DNA of 64,000 bases. It comes from Haloechinothrix halophila YIM 93223 (GTDB taxonomy: Bacteria; Actinomycetota; Actinomycetes; Mycobacteriales; Pseudonocardiaceae). Made by a program: the position numbers and the translations under genes. Positions 1,068 through 14,025 of this stretch are shown here, in pieces. The stretch is from the NCBI RefSeq assembly GCF_000504245.1, contig NZ_KI632509.1, forward strand, positions 1,487,723 through 1,551,722, in the 5' to 3' direction. The notes below the pieces were generated by a model. The model was not told the DNA's origin. It saw only the letters and a list, made by a program, of their open reading frames with translations, and did no database searches. How positions within the stretch are numbered: position 1 is the stretch's first letter; each line of letters opens with the position of its first letter.

Positions 1068-3664
<2,597 letters not shown>

Positions 3665-3671
3665 CACCGGC

Positions 3672-3715
3672 GCGACCGGCCGGTGCACGGCTGGGGGTGT
3701 GCACCGGCCGGTCGC
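3672..3715. terminator. Bidirectional terminator hairpin
   Basis: Perfect 17-bp inverted repeat (3672-3688 and 3699-3715, GCGACCGGCCGGTGCAC) with a 10-nt loop, exactly between the convergent fadH-like and mreB-like genes. Confidence 0.75.
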
Positions 3716-3718
3716 CGG

Positions 3719-4708
3719 TCAGTCGCCGTAGACCGTGAGGACGTCCGGGAGCTCGAGGGCACGGGTGGCGCCTTCGGCCACACAGGTCAGCGGGCGCTCC
3801 GCCGTCTTGACCGGGAAGCCGAACGACTCCTCGAGCAGCTGCGTGAATCCGCGCAGCATCGACCCGCCGCCCATGGCGAGCAGGCCCTCCGACATGACGT
3901 CGCCGACCGCCTGTGCCGGCAGGTCTTCCAGACACGCCGTCAGGGTGTGCACGATCTCCATCGTCGTCGGCCGCAGCGCGTCGACGACCTCTTCGGTCTC
4001 CAGCGTCACCAGCCGAGCGCGCCCGCTCGCGGCGTCGCGGCCCTCGACGACCAGCGGCTCGTCCTCGTCGCCCTCGTGCAGCCGCTTCTTGAGATCCTCC
4101 GCGGTCAGCTCACCGACGACGAGCTGGTGTTCCACCCGCAGGTACTGATACAGCGCGTTGGTCAGCTCGTCCCCTGCGACGCGGCAGCTGCGGTGGGTCA
4201 GGATGCCGCCGAAGCAGAAGCCGGTGATCTCGGCGGTGCCGCCACCGAGGTCGACGACGAGGTGCGCACGCGGTTCGAGCGGATCGATGCCGGAGCCGAG
4301 CGCGCCCGCGACCGGTTCCGGGATCAGCGCGACCTTGCGCAAGCCCGCCTCGTGCGCCACTTCGAGCAGCGCGCGCCGTTCCAGCGCGGTGGCGCCCGCG
4401 GGCACCGCGATCACTCCGCGCGGCCGGAGCCCGAGCCACCAGCGGTGGGCGACCTTGCGGATGATGGCGCCGATGAAGGAGCGCGCTGACTCCAGATCGA
4501 CGATCACGCCATCGCGCAGCGGACGTTGCGTTTCGTAGCCGTTCGGCGTGCGCCCGATCAGCTCCCGAGCCTGCGAACCGACCAGCACCGCCTTGGTCGG
4601 TGCGGTGCGTTTCACCAGCATGACCGACGGCTCGTTGAGGACGATCCCTCGTTCCGGCTCACCGACGACCGTGTTCGCCGTACCGAGGTCGATGCCAAAA
4701 CCACCCAT
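3719..4708 (-). CDS. MreB-like bacterial actin
   Basis: 329-residue actin/Hsp70-fold ATPase of the MreB family, which polymerises under the membrane and guides wall synthesis. Phosphate-1 loop GFGIDLGTANTVV at the N-terminus, LNEPSVMLV as in MreB, phosphate-2 region LVVDLGGGTAEIT near residue 160, and adenosine motif LLAMGGGSMLRGF near 285. It is slightly shorter than typical MreB (about 335-350) and divergent (FIGAIIRKVAHRWWLG replaces the usual segment). It is last in an operon behind the SEDS-PBP fusion, supporting a role in elongation-type wall growth. Its ATG overlaps the stop of a 12-codon mini-ORF. Confidence 0.85.
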   Translation of the reverse strand: MGGFGIDLGTANTVVGEPERGIVLNEPSVMLVKRTAPTKAVLVGSQARELIGRTPNGYETQRPLRDGVIVDLESARSFIGAIIRKVAHRWWLGLRPRGVIAVPAGATALERRALLEVAHEAGLRKVALIPEPVAGALGSGIDPLEPRAHLVVDLGGGTAEITGFCFGGILTHRSCRVAGDELTNALYQYLRVEHQLVVGELTAEDLKKRLHEGDEDEPLVVEGRDAASGRARLVTLETEEVVDALRPTTMEIVHTLTACLEDLPAQAVGDVMSEGLLAMGGGSMLRGFTQLLEESFGFPVKTAERPLTCVAEGATRALELPDVLTVYGD

Positions 4709-4746
4709 TACGCGCTCCCCGACTTGTGTTTCATGGACTTCTTCAT
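4708..4746 (-). CDS. Possible 12-codon mini-ORF coupled to the mreB-like start
   Basis: Reads MKKSMKHKSGSA; its TAA overlaps the mreB-like ATG by one base (TAATG) and a GAGGATCAGAGA tract precedes its ATG. It lies between the fusion-protein stop and the mreB-like start. It may only couple translation. Expression is not shown by the sequence. Confidence 0.3.
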   Translation of the reverse strand: MKKSMKHKSGSA

Positions 4747-4757
4747 TTCTCTGATCC

Positions 4758-7571
4758 TCAATCCCGGTTCTTCAGATAGTGCTCCAAGATCCGCGTCACG
4801 ACCGGGCCGGACACCGCGGAGCCGTAGCCACCGCTGCGCACCATCACGGTCACGACCAGCTGAGGGTTGTCCGCGGGGACCAGCGCGGAGAACCAGGCGT
4901 GCGTGCCGCCGTTCGGGGCGCTGGGGTCCTGCGCGGTGCCGGTCTTGGACATCGCGGTGATCGGCAGCTTGGCGAGCTGCCCGCCGGTGCCCTCCGCCGC
5001 TGACTTCCGCATGCCCTTGCGCACTGGTCCCAGTTTGTTCGCGAACGGCAGCCGCTTCGGCTCGGTGCTCGCGATCGGGATGTTCTGCGCGCCGCCATAG
5101 GACCCCGCGAGCTGCGGGGTGATCATCTTCCCGGTGCCGACGCCGACGGTCCAGCGAGACAGCTGCAACGGCGTCGCCGTGACGGTGCCCTGCCCGATAC
5201 CCATCAGTACCGTCGAGCCTGGATACCAGTGCCCGCCGATCTCCGAGACCGTCTTCGGCGTGCCGAGGAAACCGGACGCCTCGCCGGGCAGGTCGATCCC
5301 GGTCGGCGAGCCGACGCCGAGGTGCCGGGCGACGTTGGCGATCTTCTGCGGCCCGAGCTGGGCGGCGAGCTTGTAGAAGTAGACGTTGTCCGACCACTGG
5401 ATCGCCTGGAACATGTTGTGCGGCCCCATCGGCTTCCAGTTGTTGAACGTGTGGCCGCCGTAGGTGTAGGCCCCGCCGGTCGGGATGACCTGTCCCGGCG
5501 GCAGCGCGCCGTACTTCATGTTCGCCGAGGCCACGACGATCTTGAACGTCGAGCCGGGCGGCGCCGCGACCTGCGTTGCGTGGTTGAACATCGGCAGGCC
5601 CGGCCCTTTGCCCACGTTTCGCAGCTCGTCCATGTCGACCGGCGGGCTGTAGACGTTGTTGTCGTATGACGGCACGCTCGCCATCGTCTTCACCGCGCCG
5701 GTGCGGGCGTCCATCACGATCGCGGCGCCCAGATCACCGGGGCTGGTGCGCACCGCCTTCGCCAGTGCCTTGGTCGCCACCCGCTGCATGGACAGGTCCA
5801 GGTTGAGCCGCAGGTCGTGCCCGGCGATCGGGTCGACGCGCTCGGCCGCGGCGACCGGCCGTCCGCCGGGGTCGACGTAGACGCACTGCTTGCCGTCGAC
5901 GCCGCGCAGCACGGCGTCGTACTGCCGCTCGAGGCCGGACTTGCCGACGGTCGCGCCGAGCGCGATGTTCGGCCAGCGCTCCATGTCGCCCTCATCGGCG
6001 ACGCCGACGAAGCCGAGCATGGTGGACAGCATTTCCCCGTAGGGATACGACCTGCGCTCGGACGGCACCACGAGCACACCGGGCAGTTTCGCCTCGGCGA
6101 CCTGCCGTGCCACGTTCGGCGGGATCCTGCCGACCCGCACCGACAACTCGGTGCCCTCCCGGATCGCCTTGTCCACTTCGGCGCGCTTGACGCCGACGAC
6201 GTCCGCGAGCTGCTCGCGGGCACGTTCGTCCTTGTCGGGGAACAGCCCTGGCACGACGCGTGCCTCGTATTCGGTGCCGTTGCGCACCAGCGGCACGCCG
6301 CTCGTGTCGGTGATGACGCCGCGCTCGGCTGGCAGCCGGATGCAGCGGGTCATCTGATGCTCGCCCTGCAGCCGCAGCTCATCGCCACGGGCGACCTGCA
6401 ACTGCCATGCCGTCATCGACATGCCGATCAAGCCGACGGTGAGCCCGAACGCACCAGAGCGCACCAGCCGTGGGTGTTGCCTGCGCTTGGGCGGCGGTGC
6501 CCACAGGGGGCGTTGGACGCCGTCCCGGCGGGCGGCGAGCACGAAGCCGAGTGCGGCGAGGTGCACGACCGCTGTCGAGCCGCCGTAGCTGAGCAGCGGG
6601 ATCGGCAGTCCGGTGTGCGGCATGAGGCTGAGGTTGACCGCGATCGAGACGACGGCGTGCAGACCGAACAGCACCGCGACACCGGACGAGATCAACGCTG
6701 CCTCGCGGGACCGCGCCAGTCGTGCGGCGGTAGCGCAGCGCCAGACCAGCACCAGGATCGCCGCGATGGCAACGATCGCCGCGACCAGGCCCCAGCCGTG
6801 CACGAGGCTGGCGAACGCCAGGTCGTGCTCGCGTTCCGGCAGGTAGCTCGCCCGCAGCCCGTACAGTGGCTCGCGGGCCATGCCGAACAGCCCGCCCTCT
6901 CCGATGGCGATGTCGGCCTGCATCGCGGCCCAGCCTGGGCCGTCGGCGTCTCGCGCTCCGGTGAGGAAGGCGTGCACCCTGCTCAGCTGGTACGGCCGCA
7001 GTACGAGCACGGCGAGCGGCAGCGCGGCGACGCCGAGGCCGAACAGCGGCAGCAACGGCAGCAGCGGCACCCTGGCCAGCACCAGCATCAACCCGGCCGT
7101 CGCGCCGATGACGATCGCCGACGACAGGTTCGGCTGCAGCGCGACGATCACGGCAGGCACGGCCGCGATAACGAGTCCGAGCAGGAATCGGCCGATGCGA
7201 TAGCTACGGGCGAGCAGTGTCGCCAGAGCGAGCACGACCGCGATCTTGGCCAGCTCGGCGGGCTGCACGGTGAACAGCCCGAAGTCGAGCCAGCGTCGCG
7301 CCCCGTTGATGGTCACGCCAAGCACCGGAACGGCGAGCAGCAGCCCGATCGCGATCCCGTAGACGGTCCATGCGATCCGTGGCAGCTCTGTCAGCCTGAC
7401 CCTGCTCACCACGAACAGCAGGCCGATGCCGAGCACGACGAACATGCCGTGCCGGACCGCGAGATCGGCCATGCCGAGCGAGACCAGGTTCAGCAGGCCG
7501 AGCCCACCGAGAACGGCGGCAGCGAGGATCAGCCACGGATCTGTTACGCGGTGGTCCTGTTGCGCGCGCAT
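4758..7571 (-). CDS. SEDS (RodA/FtsW) glycosyltransferase fused to class B penicillin-binding protein
   Basis: 937 residues combining two enzymes normally encoded separately. Residues 1 to about 350 are a multi-spanning SEDS domain with INGARRWLDFG, the QPAELAKI loop and YLPEREHDLAFASLVHGWG carrying the putative catalytic Asp, so it should polymerise lipid II. From about 370 there is one more membrane segment, a PBP dimerisation domain and a transpeptidase with intact SxxK (STFK, near 674), SxN (SDN, near 726) and KTGT (near 876), which should cross-link the glycan. Both halves keep their key residues. Upstream gene ends 7 bp away; an MreB-like gene follows. It is probably a RodA-PBP2-like elongation synthase, though an FtsW-FtsI role cannot be excluded. 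Confidence 0.9.
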   Translation of the reverse strand: MRAQQDHRVTDPWLILAAAVLGGLGLLNLVSLGMADLAVRHGMFVVLGIGLLFVVSRVRLTELPRIAWTVYGIAIGLLLAVPVLGVTINGARRWLDFGLFTVQPAELAKIAVVLALATLLARSYRIGRFLLGLVIAAVPAVIVALQPNLSSAIVIGATAGLMLVLARVPLLPLLPLFGLGVAALPLAVLVLRPYQLSRVHAFLTGARDADGPGWAAMQADIAIGEGGLFGMAREPLYGLRASYLPEREHDLAFASLVHGWGLVAAIVAIAAILVLVWRCATAARLARSREAALISSGVAVLFGLHAVVSIAVNLSLMPHTGLPIPLLSYGGSTAVVHLAALGFVLAARRDGVQRPLWAPPPKRRQHPRLVRSGAFGLTVGLIGMSMTAWQLQVARGDELRLQGEHQMTRCIRLPAERGVITDTSGVPLVRNGTEYEARVVPGLFPDKDERAREQLADVVGVKRAEVDKAIREGTELSVRVGRIPPNVARQVAEAKLPGVLVVPSERRSYPYGEMLSTMLGFVGVADEGDMERWPNIALGATVGKSGLERQYDAVLRGVDGKQCVYVDPGGRPVAAAERVDPIAGHDLRLNLDLSMQRVATKALAKAVRTSPGDLGAAIVMDARTGAVKTMASVPSYDNNVYSPPVDMDELRNVGKGPGLPMFNHATQVAAPPGSTFKIVVASANMKYGALPPGQVIPTGGAYTYGGHTFNNWKPMGPHNMFQAIQWSDNVYFYKLAAQLGPQKIANVARHLGVGSPTGIDLPGEASGFLGTPKTVSEIGGHWYPGSTVLMGIGQGTVTATPLQLSRWTVGVGTGKMITPQLAGSYGGAQNIPIASTEPKRLPFANKLGPVRKGMRKSAAEGTGGQLAKLPITAMSKTGTAQDPSAPNGGTHAWFSALVPADNPQLVVTVMVRSGGYGSAVSGPVVTRILEHYLKNRD

Positions 7572-7578
7572 GACGGCC

Positions 7579-9324
7579 TCAGCACAGTGCTCGGTTGGCG
7601 GACACGAGCAACGGCGCTGAGGCGGCCTTCGCCGGGGTGTCGGTCACCGCGACGACCGCGAGCGAGCGCGAGTCTGGCAGCGTCGGACGGCTGATGCCGT
7701 ACACCTGCTGCCACCCCGGCGCGGCGGCCATGGTGACCCCTTCGCGTTTGCGAATTTTGTCGGTACAGCGATCAACAATGCGCAGTGACCAGCTGATCTC
7801 CCGATGCGAGGCCGACGGGTCGAGTCGCACGTCGACTCGTACCGGGCACACTTCGCCGCGAGTGCATTCACCTTCCGCGCGTTCGATCGTCACACCGTTG
7901 ATCGGACCGGCCTCCTTCGGGGCGAGCCGGGGAACCGGCCCTGGTTTGTCGTCGTCCTTGTTCGTTTTCTTGTCCGCGGCCGCAGTGCTGTCGCTCTTGC
8001 CGGTGGTCTTGCCGCCGCTGCTCTCGTCCTCGGGCGGAGCTACCGGTGGCAGTTGCTGCGACGGCTGGCTTGTGGTGAACACCGCTTCCCAGCCACGGCG
8101 CAGTTCGGACCACGCGCGCGGCACGGCCCACCAGCCCGCGACCGCGACCATCGCCACGATCAGCGTGATCACCACGGCCTTGCGGCGGGGCAGCCGCCGC
8201 TTGCGGTACCAGGCCCTGCGCCGTGCGCCGCGCAGGTCACCCCTTGCGAGGCTGAACGAGCTGCTAGACGTCGCTGCGCTGGACGTCTCCGCCGCGTCGG
8301 TAGTGGTTTCCGAGTCGCCTTCCGAACCTTCGTGACCGCCGTCCGCGCCATCCGCGTTGTCCGCCGCGCCGCTACCGTGCTGCGCTGACCCGCTCACCGG
8401 CGTCGTGTCGCGCAGTGCCTTGCGGCCTTCGGTCGCGGTGACCAGCGCGATGATCTGCCTGCGGGTCGTCGTCGTCCAGTCCTGCCAGCTCGCGCCATCG
8501 CCAGCCGCGAGTTCGTTGACCGCGCCCCGCACCTTGTCGCGGAGTTCGGACAGATCGGTGCTGGTGCCGGTGAGCCGATCGGTCAGCAGCGCGGCGTCCA
8601 CCTTGCGGCGCGCACTGCCGCCTCTGGTGTGGGCGGCGAGCAGCCGTACGAGCGAGTTCGCCGTGGTCGCCGCGACCGGCAGCCGCTCGAGGCCACGCTC
8701 CGCCGCGCGTGCGCTGCCGTTCGCGGAGCCGTTGCGGCGGCGGGCGGTCGTGCCGCCGGACTTCGTGCCACTTCTCGATCGAGACCCCGTACCGCGAGCT
8801 CCCGTACTCTTCTTGGTTCTGCCTTTGCCGCCATTCGAGCTCGCCTTGGTACTCGCGCTGCCACCCGCTGCGGCCTCACCCGTGTCATCGCCGCCGCTGT
8901 CCTCTTCGGAGTCGGATGCCGTGCCTGACGCGGTGTCGTTCGCGCCAGCGGCGTCCGTTGTCGCGGTTGACGCCGAAGATGCGGTGCCGATCGCCGCCTC
9001 GAGCGAGGGAGCGACCACCACGGTGCCGTCCCGCCGCACGAGTACCGAACGATCGTTCACCTGGTCCGGGCACTCGCCACGCTCCTCAAGAGTGACAAGT
9101 GTGTCCATCAGGTCAACCGCGAGTAGTCCAGCCTGCGCGGGCGTCAGCGTGGCGACCGCGAGCAGCCTGCGCAATGCGATGGTGCCCTGAAGGTCCTTAC
9201 CGGTGTCCTCGGCGGCGTGATCGGGTGGCTGGCCGTTGGCAGCCGCGGCACCAGGTTCCAGCTCGCGTCGCGTGTCCTCCTCGGCGTCGCGTTGCTGTGA
9301 CTGGTGAACTACGGCTTCTGCCAT
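7579..9324 (-). CDS. Single-span membrane protein with low-complexity cytoplasmic region, function unknown
   Basis: 581 residues. The N-terminal 100 (LTPAQAGLLAVDLMDTLVTLEERGE, then VLVRRDGTVVVAP) faintly recall the degenerate kinase-like domains of actinobacterial proteins, but no catalytic residues are present. A Ser/Gly/Thr/Lys/Arg-rich disordered stretch, a helical segment (about 200-270), an acidic Ser/Thr tract and a basic cluster (RRRAWYRKRRLPRRK) follow. One transmembrane helix lies near residue 380 (VVITLIVAMVAVAGWWAV), then a roughly 175-residue extracytoplasmic part with Cys residues. It is first gene of the operon with the SEDS-PBP fusion and mreB-like gene, so a regulatory or scaffold role in wall growth is plausible. 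ATG 9324 is chosen over the upstream start for its AAAGGGA ribosome site. Confidence 0.7.
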   Translation of the reverse strand: MAEAVVHQSQQRDAEEDTRRELEPGAAAANGQPPDHAAEDTGKDLQGTIALRRLLAVATLTPAQAGLLAVDLMDTLVTLEERGECPDQVNDRSVLVRRDGTVVVAPSLEAAIGTASSASTATTDAAGANDTASGTASDSEEDSGGDDTGEAAAGGSASTKASSNGGKGRTKKSTGARGTGSRSRSGTKSGGTTARRRNGSANGSARAAERGLERLPVAATTANSLVRLLAAHTRGGSARRKVDAALLTDRLTGTSTDLSELRDKVRGAVNELAAGDGASWQDWTTTTRRQIIALVTATEGRKALRDTTPVSGSAQHGSGAADNADGADGGHEGSEGDSETTTDAAETSSAATSSSSFSLARGDLRGARRRAWYRKRRLPRRKAVVITLIVAMVAVAGWWAVPRAWSELRRGWEAVFTTSQPSQQLPPVAPPEDESSGGKTTGKSDSTAAADKKTNKDDDKPGPVPRLAPKEAGPINGVTIERAEGECTRGEVCPVRVDVRLDPSASHREISWSLRIVDRCTDKIRKREGVTMAAAPGWQQVYGISRPTLPDSRSLAVVAVTDTPAKAASAPLLVSANRALC

Positions 9325-9423
9325 TGCGCATCCCTTTGCCCCGACTGTGATGTGCACCACCTATTGTCGCGCGATCGGGGGCACTTTGTGCAGGTCCAAT
9401 CGTGCCCAGCCGATGATCGCTAT

Positions 9424-9435: not shown

Positions 9436-9563
9436 TAGCCGCCGTTTGGTTCCGGGGAACCCACAATCTGATTGAGATGCGGACAAGATTCGGGTATGCG
9501 CACATATCTGGGCTTGTCCGGTAGGCTTTCCCCGCACAATGTCTCGCCGAGGTGGAGGATGCG

Positions 9564-10391
9564 GTGGCAGCCAAGCGACCATCCTGGGCGCCAGAGGGTG
9601 TCGACATGGAGGTGCCTAGTCCGGCACGCATGTACGACGCGCTGCTCGGCGGTTCCCACAATTTCGACATCGACCGCAAGGCCGCTGCCAACGCGGCTGG
9701 GCTGGTCCCCGATCTGCCCAAGGTAGCGCTGAGTAACCGGGCTTTCCTGCGCCGGTCAGTGCGGTACCTCGTCGACATGGGCGTGCGGCAGTTCCTCGAC
9801 ATCGGCTCCGGTATCCCGACCGTCGGCAACGCGCATGAGGTCGCGCAGCGCGCCGCGTCGGACAGCAGAGTGCTCTACGTCGACATCGACCCGGTCGCCG
9901 TCGCGCATTCCGAGGTCATCCTCGCCGGAAACGAGCGGGCGTCCGCCATCGAAGGCGATCTGCGTTCCCCAGCCGACCTGCTCACCGATGTCCGGGTGCG
10001 CAACATCATCGACTTCGACAAGCCAGTCGGCGTGCTGCTCGTCGCGGTGCTGCATCTGCTCGCCGATGCCGACCGGCCACACGAGGTGGTGGCTACGCTG
10101 CGTGACGCCATGCCCGAGGGAAGCTACTTCGTGATCTCGCACCTGTCGAGCGCCAGCCGGCCTGACGACGCGGCTCAACTCGGCGAGCAGGCACGCAACA
10201 AGACCGGGGTGCCCATCATCTTCCGGACACGTGAGGAGATCACGCCGTTCTTCGACGGTCTTACGGTCATTGACCCAGGTGTGGTGGAATTGCCGTTGTG
10301 GCGGCCGGAATCGGAGGCCGACATCGATGAGGAACCCGGCCGATCCCTGGGGCTCGCGGGGGTCGGGCGAAAAGACACCCCCGCGAGCTGA
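9564..10391 (+). CDS. DUF574-type S-adenosylmethionine methyltransferase
   Basis: About 275 residues of the actinobacteria-specific S-adenosyl methyltransferase family (PF04672). Visible hallmarks are PSPARMYDALLGGSHNFDIDR at the N-terminus, the SAM-binding FLDIGSGIPTVGNAHEVAQ, VLYVDIDPVAVAHSE and ISHLSSASRPD. Substrates of most members are unknown; the family is very abundant in actinomycetes, often beside regulators. GTG 9564 is preferred because GGTGGAGG precedes it by about five bases; GTG 9552 is in frame. It is followed after 5 bp by the GGDEF/EAL gene, so the two are probably co-transcribed. Confidence 0.85.
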   Translation: MAAKRPSWAPEGVDMEVPSPARMYDALLGGSHNFDIDRKAAANAAGLVPDLPKVALSNRAFLRRSVRYLVDMGVRQFLDIGSGIPTVGNAHEVAQRAASDSRVLYVDIDPVAVAHSEVILAGNERASAIEGDLRSPADLLTDVRVRNIIDFDKPVGVLLVAVLHLLADADRPHEVVATLRDAMPEGSYFVISHLSSASRPDDAAQLGEQARNKTGVPIIFRTREEITPFFDGLTVIDPGVVELPLWRPESEADIDEEPGRSLGLAGVGRKDTPAS

Positions 10392-10396
10392 ACGCC

Positions 10397-12526
10397 ATGA
10401 CTACAGCGCACTCGGTCGAACGGTTCGCCACGAGGTGGGCCTCCTCGCTCAAGGGCGCTGTCGCACCGGCGATGACGCGCGCCGAACTCGAGGACTTCCT
10501 GCGGGAACTGACTGAGCAGCTCGCCGAGGCGATGCGGTCGGTGCCGTTCCGTCCCGAGCTGGGCAGGGCGGTGGGCAAGGCGCTCATCGACGCACATTAT
10601 CGCGACACCTCGGTGCTCAACCGCACGCTCGCGCTGCTCAGCGACGAGTTCGTCGCCGAGATCGGCAGTGAGCTGGGCAGCGAGCTCGGCAACGGGGCAC
10701 TCATGTCCCGGGTCTCGCAGTTGCACGGCGCGGTCGCGGAAGGCTTCGCGATCGCGCTGCGGGATACGGTGCTCGCCGAACAGGAAACGACCCAGCGGGC
10801 CGCGCTCGCCGCCGCCCGTGCCGCCGAGGAACGCCGCCGCGCCAGCGAGGCCCGGTTCCAGGCGGTGTTCGCGGGAGCAGCCGTCGGCATCGGCGTCGTC
10901 GACCTGTCTGGTGCCGTCCTCGAGGTCAACGAGGCGATGGCAGGCATGCTCGGCCGCGCGACGGATGACATCAGGGGTCGCACCATCGGTGATGTCATCG
11001 GACCGGACAACATCGGCCACGCCTACGGCGAGTTCAAGAAGTTGATCGCGGGCGACATCGACCAGTTCCGGCTGGAGACCGCGCATCTGCGCCCTGATGG
11101 CAGAGTCGCCAATGTCGACCTGTCCATGACGGCGGTGCGCGACCGCACCGGCGCCCCGGACTTCTTCATCGGCGTCGCCGTCGACGTCACCGAGCGGCGC
11201 AGGCTACAGAACCGGCTGTGGCACGAGTCCCGGCACGATTCACTGACGGGGCTGCCCAACCGCACGTTGTTCTTCGAGCGGCTGGAGGCCGCTGAGCAGC
11301 CGCTCGGGCTGTGCTACCTGGACCTCGACGGGTTCAAGAACATCAATGACAGCCTCGGCCACGACGCGGGCGACTACGTGTTGCGGGCGGTCGCGAACCG
11401 GCTGCGCAAGGCCGTCGAGCCGGATGGTTGCACCGTGGCACGGCTCGGCGGCGACGAGTTCGTCGTCCTGATCGAGCGCTGCGGCAGTCCGGACTGGGTC
11501 GCGCGGGAAGCCGAGAAGATGCTTGCCGTGTTCGGCAGGCCGATCGAGTTCGACGATGAGCAGCTCAGCGTCACCGGCAGCATCGGCGTCGTCCACTCGG
11601 CGCTGGTCGGCCGCGATCCGGGACGGCTGATGCGCGCTGCCGACGTCACGCTGTACCAGGCCAAGGCCAATGGGAGCGGCCGCTGGGAGCGTTACGACCC
11701 CGCACGCGGTGAGCAAGAGCTGACCAGGCACAGCCTCGCCACCGCCATGCCAGCCGCGCTGGCGCACAACGAGTTCCTGCTGCACTACCAGCCGCTCGTC
11801 TCGCTCGCCGATTCAACGGTGCGCGGGTTCGAGGCGCTGGTGCGCTGGGACCACCCCCGGCTCGGCCGGGTCTCGCCGGGACAGTTCATCCCGGTCGCCG
11901 AGGAGACCGGCAACATCAACGCGCTCGGGCAGTGGGTGCTCGAGCAAGGATGCCTGCAGGCACGGCGCTGGTTCGACGAGTTCGGCGTCGACGACCTCTA
12001 CGTCAGCGTCAACGTCGCCGCGACGCAGCTGCGCCAGCCCACCTTCGTCGCCGACGTGCTCGGCACGCTGGACCAGGTCGGGCTACCCGCGATGTGCCTG
12101 CAGCTCGAACTCACCGAGAGCGCCGTCGCGGGCGACACCCACGGTGCGCTGGTCGCGCTGCGGGAATTGGCCGCGGCGGGCGTCCGGCTGGCCATTGACG
12201 ACTTCGGTACCGGCTACTCCAACCTCGCGCACCTCGGCAGGCTGCCGGTGCACCAGCTCAAGATCGACCGCTCGCTGCTGTCGTCCTCCCGCAAGGGCGA
12301 GGTGGTCGACCCCGCCCACGACAAGATCATCGCCGCCACGATCTCGCTGGCTCACTCACTCGGGCTGGACGTCCTTGCCGAGGGCGTCGAGACCACGCCG
12401 CAGGCCGATCGGCTGCGGCTACTGCAGTGCGACGGCGTGCAGGGAATGCTCTTCGGTGGACCCGTTCCGGTCAGTGAGGCGGCCGAGGTGCTCGCCTGCC
12501 AAACCCGGCGTGCCAATTCCGCGTAG
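10397..12526 (+). CDS. PAS-GGDEF-EAL cyclic-di-GMP synthase/phosphodiesterase
   Basis: 709 residues. An N-terminal helical region (1-150) precedes a PAS domain (about 155-275: RFQAVFAGAAVGIGVVDLSG), a GGDEF domain with intact GGDEF near 351 and LDLDGFKNINDSLGHDAGD, and an EAL domain with FEALVRW near 478, LTESAV, AIDDFGTGYSNLAHL and AEGVETT. Both catalytic domains keep their signature residues, so it may both make and hydrolyse c-di-GMP, with PAS sensing deciding direction. No transmembrane segment is evident, so it is likely cytosolic. A conventional actinobacterial architecture. Confidence 0.92.
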   Translation: MTTAHSVERFATRWASSLKGAVAPAMTRAELEDFLRELTEQLAEAMRSVPFRPELGRAVGKALIDAHYRDTSVLNRTLALLSDEFVAEIGSELGSELGNGALMSRVSQLHGAVAEGFAIALRDTVLAEQETTQRAALAAARAAEERRRASEARFQAVFAGAAVGIGVVDLSGAVLEVNEAMAGMLGRATDDIRGRTIGDVIGPDNIGHAYGEFKKLIAGDIDQFRLETAHLRPDGRVANVDLSMTAVRDRTGAPDFFIGVAVDVTERRRLQNRLWHESRHDSLTGLPNRTLFFERLEAAEQPLGLCYLDLDGFKNINDSLGHDAGDYVLRAVANRLRKAVEPDGCTVARLGGDEFVVLIERCGSPDWVAREAEKMLAVFGRPIEFDDEQLSVTGSIGVVHSALVGRDPGRLMRAADVTLYQAKANGSGRWERYDPARGEQELTRHSLATAMPAALAHNEFLLHYQPLVSLADSTVRGFEALVRWDHPRLGRVSPGQFIPVAEETGNINALGQWVLEQGCLQARRWFDEFGVDDLYVSVNVAATQLRQPTFVADVLGTLDQVGLPAMCLQLELTESAVAGDTHGALVALRELAAAGVRLAIDDFGTGYSNLAHLGRLPVHQLKIDRSLLSSSRKGEVVDPAHDKIIAATISLAHSLGLDVLAEGVETTPQADRLRLLQCDGVQGMLFGGPVPVSEAAEVLACQTRRANSA

Positions 12527-13149: not shown

Positions 13150-14025
13150 GTGTCCCGTCGTCATTGGGCAAGCGCGGCAGCGGTCGTGCTGGCGAGCGCG
13201 CTCGTCGCCCCAGCGCAGGCCGCGGCCGAACCAACACCACAACACGCCGACCTTGGCATGGCCCATCTGTCTGACCTGTACGTCGCGACGACGACGGACG
13301 GCCGGGAATTGCTGCGGTTCTCCGCCATGATCGTCAACGTCGGATCAGGGCCGTTTGAGATCGTCGCGTCCAGAGCGGACCAGTTGTCCTCGTTCGATGT
13401 CATGCAGCGGATCAGTCAGTCGGACGGATCGACAACAGACGTCCCCACGGATGCTGAGTTGGTTTACGGCGGCGATGGCCACGACCACTGGCACGTGCGG
13501 GACCTAGAAAACTACGAACTGCTGCGGCTGGACAACGGCGTCAAGGTCGGCACGGGCGCCAAGAGCGGGTTCTGCTTCTTCGACACCGACCCATACGAGC
13601 TGAGCCTGCCCGGCGCGCCAAGTGACCCGGTGTACAGCCATGAGACATGTGGTCACCTCGACTCGCTCGACGTCTCGATGGGGTTGTCGATCGGGTGGGG
13701 CGACGAGTACCCGTGGAACCTGCCTGACCAGTACATCGAGATCACCTCGGTCGACAACGGCAAGTACCGGCTGCGCGCCACTGCCGACCAGGGCGAACTG
13801 TTCACCGAGGCCAGCGAGTCCAACAACGTCACCTGGGTCGACATCCGGCTGTCCCGGCGCGGCGGCAAGACGTCGGTGAAGATCCTCGACTACGGCCCCG
13901 ATGCCCTCAGCTCCGGCGATGACGATGGCTCCGGTGGCGATGACGGCGGCGGGCCCGGTAACGGCAACGGCAACGGCAACGACAACGGCGTTGGCAACGG
14001 CGGCACCCCGCCTGGCCACGAGTAA
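13150..14025 (+). CDS. Secreted lysyl-oxidase-like copper protein
   Basis: 291 residues. Signal peptide (RRHWASAAAVVLASALVAPAQAAA) followed by a lysyl oxidase fold (PF01186): DLGMAHLSDLYV, RFSAMIVNVGSGPFEI, the copper-binding talon GHDHWHVRDLENYEL near residue 111, GFCFFDT, HETCGHL, GLSIGWGDEYPW, and GKYRLRATADQGELFTEASESNN. In animals this family oxidises lysine side chains using copper and a quinone cofactor; bacterial members are poorly studied. A C-terminal tail of about 45 residues is Gly/Asn/Asp rich. Start GTG 13150 follows GAGGAGG. A terminator hairpin comes after. Confidence 0.85.
   Translation: MSRRHWASAAAVVLASALVAPAQAAAEPTPQHADLGMAHLSDLYVATTTDGRELLRFSAMIVNVGSGPFEIVASRADQLSSFDVMQRISQSDGSTTDVPTDAELVYGGDGHDHWHVRDLENYELLRLDNGVKVGTGAKSGFCFFDTDPYELSLPGAPSDPVYSHETCGHLDSLDVSMGLSIGWGDEYPWNLPDQYIEITSVDNGKYRLRATADQGELFTEASESNNVTWVDIRLSRRGGKTSVKILDYGPDALSSGDDDGSGGDDGGGPGNGNGNGNDNGVGNGGTPPGHE

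Follow-up and report, generated by a model that had tools for sequence, protein, structure and literature searches.

Three adjacent genes of Haloechinothrix halophila YIM 93223 (5.55 Mb, one contig; the host genome) probably encode an accessory peptidoglycan synthase of the Rod (elongasome-like) type. They lie on the minus strand of the 64,000-nucleotide stretch of DNA analyzed here (the window, to which all coordinates refer) in the order membrane protein (9324-7579), fusion of a SEDS polymerase with a class B penicillin-binding protein (PBP) (7571-4758) and mreB (4708-3719). As far as the literature searched shows, what is new is the three-gene module in which the fusion is accompanied by MreB and a bitopic membrane protein; no published description of it was found there. 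The genomes scanned comprised 150 of the host family (Pseudonocardiaceae), 397 of the host order (Mycobacteriales), 112 of a second family (f16, scanned for the fusion) and, sampled across the phylum, 396. The features identified are given below; residue numbers for the membrane segment of the bitopic protein are counted from a longer ORF start at 9360.

3660..3722, minus strand: strong hairpin past the mreB stop codon (-47 kcal/mol, z = -6.35)
3716..4729, no strand assigned: inverted block that carries mreB and its ribosome site, by comparison with the related genome G081
3719..4708, minus strand: gene for a 329-aa MreB belonging to the module clade, with the equivalents of E140 and T167 kept and a WWLGL loop at the membrane-loop position
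4758..7571, minus strand: gene for the SEDS-class B PBP fusion, 937 aa, with RodA-type polymerase, cytoplasmic linker and PBP2-type transpeptidase (domain and structure matches)
4782..5729, minus strand: transpeptidase domain, residues 615-930, with S674xxK, S727xN and K876TG (domain search, alignment)
5850..6335, minus strand: PBP dimerisation (pedestal) domain, residues 413-574 (domain search)
6456..6536, minus strand: fusion linker, residues 346-372, candidate MreB docking site (alignment; docking proposed from PMC13327600)
6525..7538, minus strand: SEDS domain, residues 12-349, with catalytic Asp250, QP(A/S)E motif at 103-106 and K109 (domain search, alignment)
7579..9324, minus strand: gene for the bitopic membrane protein; the conserved start gives 581 aa, and the longer GTG start at 9360 is unlikely
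7582..7929, minus strand: outer Ig/FnIII-like domain of the bitopic protein, residues 478-593; four Cys (499, 505, 532, 593) are invariant
8113..8181, minus strand: transmembrane segment of the bitopic protein, approximately residues 394-416 (sequence; AlphaFold helix 392-428)

The first-pass annotation of this DNA had read a SEDS domain and a transpeptidase in a single frame, and this was confirmed by Pfam domains and by motifs in the places named. The fusion is one uninterrupted frame of 937 codons (7571..4758, minus strand). The SEDS model PF01098 matched residues 37-348 with 209 bits (curated cut-off 26.4), the transpeptidase domain at residues 615-930 scored 185 bits, and all domains of the fusion lay far above the curated Pfam cut-offs. 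The motifs are QPAELAKI (103-110), LPEREHD (244-250), STFK (674-677), SDN (727-729) and KTGT (876-879). In an alignment of 22 fusion homologs, residues R93, W94, Q103, P104, K109 and D250 of the SEDS half were invariant, as were S674, K677, S727, K876, G878 and T879 of the PBP half. D250 aligned with Asp255 of T. thermophilus RodA, the residue that is changed to Ala in the solved chain 6bas. Membership of the SEDS class is based on the domain score above cut-off together with this catalytic extracellular Asp, and that of the class B PBPs on the PBP dimerisation domain together with a transpeptidase carrying SxxK, SxN/D and KTG. By sequence the SEDS half is an intact RodA-type polymerase, and polymerase activity is predicted for it.

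Among solved structures, the SEDS half was closest to T. thermophilus RodA and the PBP half to E. coli PBP2. Among the NCBIfam models the SEDS half scored 233 bits with rodA against 210 with ftsW, and the PBP half 420 bits with pbp2_mrdA against 204 with spoVD; though these were the best-scoring models, the equivalog cut-offs for RodA (rodA_shape, 337 bits) and PBP2 (pbp2_mrdA, 455 bits) were not reached. The AlphaFold model of the fusion was of moderate quality (mean pLDDT 71), its PBP half matched class B PBPs at Z ~40, and a helix at residues 369-407 corresponds to the single PBP membrane helix, which follows the cytoplasmic linker. The order SEDS then PBP fits the topology, the SEDS C-terminus and the PBP N-terminus both being cytoplasmic. 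The linker is 27 residues long in 25 of 26 sequences, with RRD, LW and PR invariant. A separate PBP arising from an internal start was considered and rejected; the linker lacks a start codon in many of the sequences.

That the frame is a sequencing or assembly artefact, the failure which the first-pass annotation had allowed for, has practically no probability left, and nothing in its favor was found. A frame-joining error is excluded because 21 homologs from other assemblies match it from end to end; full-length homologs occur in many genomes and on three plasmids, with a fixed linker length and no stops. Separate SEDS and class B PBP genes were also found in the host genome, which has two further SEDS genes, one FtsW-like at 3.95 Mb and one RodA at 0.60 Mb. 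The latter adjoins a gene for a class B PBP (PbpA) and two Ser/Thr kinase genes in the usual actinobacterial pkn cluster. The fusion is therefore additional to separate FtsW and RodA-PbpA genes, and the idea that it might be the sole SEDS/PBP pair, and widespread as such, fails on both counts, the fusion being present in nine of the 150 host-family genomes. The proposal of a wall unit distinct from the housekeeping ones is upheld by these separate genes and by co-inheritance of the three module genes across families.

SEDS polymerases and class B PBPs normally form a complex of two proteins; the fusion and its neighboring genes had suggested to the annotation a self-contained machine distinct from the housekeeping one. 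PMC10449877, citing McLeod 2006, mentions natural single-ORF SEDS-PBP fusions for Rhodococcus sp. RHA1, and artificial fusions that join RodA to PBP2 or SpoVE to SpoVD in this order of domains work (PMC10449877, PMC6207328). The fusion as such is not new, since natural ones are in print and artificial ones work. The RHA1 fusion is, as here, a single ORF with SEDS and PBP parts; neither an MreB partner, a membrane partner nor a function is described for it in PMC10449877. It probably belongs to the same family as the host fusion, because homologs, 60% identical over the full length, exist on Rhodococcus plasmids. Artificial RodA-PBP2, SpoVE-SpoVD and FtsW-PBP3 fusions share with the host protein the domain order and a cytoplasmic linker, but the RodA-PBP2 constructs carry engineered Gly/Ser linkers whereas the linker here is charged and conserved.

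The mreB product was identified as a true MreB (PF06723, 306 bits; NF010539 above cut-off) and is the only one in the host genome, five other matches being distant (27-65 bits). It lacks an N-terminal helix, the chain opening with the first strand, and carries the hydrophobic loop WWLGL. The roles of the catalytic residues E140 and T167 were described in PMC4051119. In several module MreBs of family f16 (e.g. L147, L149, L150, L153, L157, L158 and L159) D, Q, N, A or G stands in place of the equivalent of Caulobacter E140, and the T167 equivalent is lost in some f16 module MreBs. Those f16 module MreBs without the catalytic Glu are possibly non-hydrolysing, so that filaments there may be less dynamic. 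A profile search of the whole host genome gave no match to MreC; this absence is meaningful because the same model scores 88-111 bits with MreC from relatives in the order. No match to MreD was obtained in the host genome with a model which is insensitive, finding MreD in five of 14 control genomes and scoring order relatives weakly.

The upstream gene had been annotated as encoding an unknown low-complexity membrane protein beginning at 9324. Both points are sustained: no Pfam or NCBIfam model matched at a significant level, and the start is conserved, M13 of the longer ORF from 9360 being nearly invariant. The alignment of 23 homologs begins with a cytoplasmic N-terminal part that is conserved; stretches of low complexity and variable sequence and a basic segment come next, then a single membrane helix, a spacer rich in proline and the outer domain with its four invariant Cys. 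The outer domain was modeled by AlphaFold as an Ig/FnIII-like beta sandwich (pLDDT >90 for most of it), and the matches listed in a fold search with the bitopic protein fell on this domain (best Z 9.8), a common fold that names no function. The likeness of the protein to RodZ and MreC is one of topology. The gene is fast-evolving (dN/dS 0.45), while the fusion (0.19) and mreB (0.05) are under purifying selection. In a profile comparison made for a degenerate protein-kinase C-lobe, the N-terminal part scored 24.5, while 30 shuffles reached no more than 15.2; the probability was only 5.6%, which makes the match a lead at most. The weak likeness, at positions 9183-9001 of the window (residues 60-120), covers helix D/E and beta 7/8 of Ser/Thr kinases, and the HRD motif is lacking.

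The intergenic gaps are 7 nt between the upstream gene and the fusion and 49 nt between the fusion and mreB. The operon with mreB that the first-pass annotation had proposed holds for the host genome but not in general, as 24 of 27 loci have mreB and the fusion facing each other, mostly with just 0 to 51 nt between the two stop codons. It is downstream and co-directional only in the host genome and in genomes G003 and G049, and lies upstream in G098. The operon is thus a feature of the host and its closest relatives, which arose through a local inversion. Comparison of positions 3716-4729 with locus L037 revealed a precise inversion, within the genus, of mreB together with its ribosome site, by which a convergent pair took on an operon-like order. 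Linkage that outlasts the inversion is more readily explained by a functional tie than by a requirement for co-transcription. The hairpin at 3660..3722 is a probable terminator between mreB and a convergent oxidoreductase gene.

The fusion was found in nine of the 150 host-family genomes (cut short in one, G049, where the contig ends), in 22 of the 397 genomes of the order (two, in draft genomes, likewise interrupted) and in 21 of the 112 genomes of f16. The total is 35 different genomes from four families of the order, plus three Rhodococcus plasmids; a scan of named genome contigs gave Actinophytocola MAGs among its matches. Among the 396 genomes sampled across the phylum no full-length fusion was found outside the order, only separate PBP2-like proteins, and none was found in the phage records searched. 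Four Oscillospiraceae loci (L051-L054) that matched both halves were rejected as fusions; they contain neighboring genes, and no ORF spans both.

MreB is present in exactly the nine host-family genomes that bear the fusion, with no second MreB found in any of them, and absent from the other 141. In the order, module-type MreB accompanies the fusion in 22 of 22 genomes; in 50 others, which lack the fusion, the only MreB is a more distant one (~40% identity). From the two sets of counts, module-type MreB is therefore present in all 29 fusion genomes examined. Its gene adjoins the fusion in 27 of these, lies 7 kb away in G335 and is on a different small contig in G278; linkage is kept in 27 of the 28 genomes having contig context. 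In G335 (locus L147) the mreB was matched in two pieces and is possibly decaying. Only the three genes are conserved across families; the flanks differ and are unrelated between genomes. Trees were built separately for the SEDS half, for the PBP half and for MreB; in each, the module proteins formed one clade (100/100), and the three agreed on the main split between a window-like and an f16-like branch. The simplest reading of these trees and counts would be a single origin of the fusion together with its MreB, with spread or loss many times thereafter.

The three plasmid fusions are 60-61% identical to the host protein over 99% of the query and are annotated merely as "FtsW/RodA/SpoVE family protein". 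Their loci (L181, L182 and L183) are on pRWAY03, pRB29 and R. pseudokoreensis unnamed4, large plasmids with metal-resistance genes nearby. The fusion is intact on these plasmids, with its linker kept and a dN/dS of ~0.2, and the bitopic gene is fragmented. No mreB was found within 12 kb of the plasmid fusions, and no Rhodococcus plasmid was among the best matches listed in a plasmid search with MreB. An intact fusion under purifying selection with no mreB near and a broken bitopic gene suggests that the fusion may work without both; the plasmid protein would either be served by another MreB or have a function of its own.

For the module as a whole we propose that the polymerase would make strands from lipid II and pass them to the attached transpeptidase. 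The covalent joining of the two would keep both activities always at 1:1 and always coupled. MreB filaments would bind the conserved 27-residue linker and align the enzyme along the side wall. In E. coli, MreB binds the RodA tail and the PBP2 N-terminus (PMC13327600), and the linker may be a merger of these two docking places, the C-terminal tail of RodA and the cytoplasmic N-terminus of PBP2. Fusion might render MreC-type assembly control partly unnecessary, and the bitopic protein could fill the place of MreC or RodZ, its outer domain then acting on the PBP pedestal while its inner part acts on MreB or a regulator. A cell whose growth is otherwise polar would thereby gain side-wall or shape-specific insertion of wall material.

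A more specific form of this proposal is put forward tentatively and with somewhat less than even expectation. It holds that the module may be a natural minimal elongasome, in which MreB sits on the linker of a one-protein RodA-PBP2, the bitopic Ig-domain protein replaces MreC, MreD and RodZ, and the three-gene cassette has moved between polar-growing actinobacterial lineages. Activated RodA-PBP2 and MreB can suffice as a minimal elongasome without MreCD and RodZ in E. coli (PMC13327600); that system has MreB and RodA-PBP2 in common with the module, and its docking segments are those which form the host linker, but it is a laboratory mutant with two separate proteins and no Ig-domain partner. 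With the Rod complex of E. coli and B. subtilis (RodA-PBP2-MreBCD-RodZ) the module shares a RodA-type polymerase, a PBP2-type transpeptidase and an MreB with intact ATPase residues, whereas in the host the polymerase and transpeptidase are fused, MreC and MreD were not found and there is instead an apparently unrelated bitopic Ig-domain protein. The module looks like a natural pared-down version of the rod-shaping machine. MreB and RodA-PBP2 acting alone as a machine are so far known from E. coli mutants. If the proposal is true, both the way in which MreB steers the synthase and the need for MreC, MreD and RodZ could be approached by reconstitution of three proteins, and the polar-growing actinobacteria, including a host family mostly without MreB, would have a transferable side-wall machine.

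An accessory elongation synthase has to be weighed against other uses of the same genes. Service in spore-wall synthesis, which the first-pass annotation had suggested beside elongation, is unlikely, even though Streptomyces Mre proteins act in spore wall synthesis (PMC4416010, PMC3296230) and MreB is absent from most members of the host family. The actinobacterial mre cluster and the Streptomyces spore wall synthesizing complex resemble the module in that MreB, PBP2 and RodA are encoded together; the canonical cluster in the host order has separate genes in the order mreB-mreC-mreD-pbp2-rodA, and the module proteins form separate clades. The Streptomyces complex is characterized by separate MreB, MreC, MreD, PBP2 and Sfr genes, a composition that the module does not have. 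No sporulation gene lies near, the flanks are unrelated from genome to genome, and MreC was not found in the host genome. Rhodococcus, which also has the fusion, is not known to form spores, and none of the evidence lends support to a sporulation role.

Less likely still is a horizontally moving accessory PBP/SEDS pair for tolerance of wall antibiotics or stress, with the MreB neighborhood secondary. Its patchy spread (9/150 and 21/112 genomes in two families) and its presence on Rhodococcus plasmids beside metal-resistance genes, without mreB, would fit such a pair. Against it, the fusion is strictly inherited together with an MreB of the matching clade in every one of the 29 genomes examined, and the likeness to low-affinity PBPs is of the general class only (50-83 bits with PBP2a models). 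That MreB and the fusion are neighbors through common descent only and work in different processes is very improbable. The orientation and position of mreB do vary, and the fusion persists without it on plasmids; against this stand the linkage in 27 of 28 genomes despite inversion and unrelated flanks, and the finding of no other MreB in the nine family genomes. An accessory Rod-type synthase is thus the reading preferred here.

Beyond the module, the window contains an S-adenosyl methyltransferase-type gene (9552-10391) that adjoins a PAS-GGDEF-EAL gene (10397-12526), a flank conserved in the genus. A fragment of a transposase with an integrase core (rve_3) is located at the window edge (34-759), and the gene at 13150-14025 encodes a secreted-looking protein with a lysyl-oxidase-like domain (PF01186).
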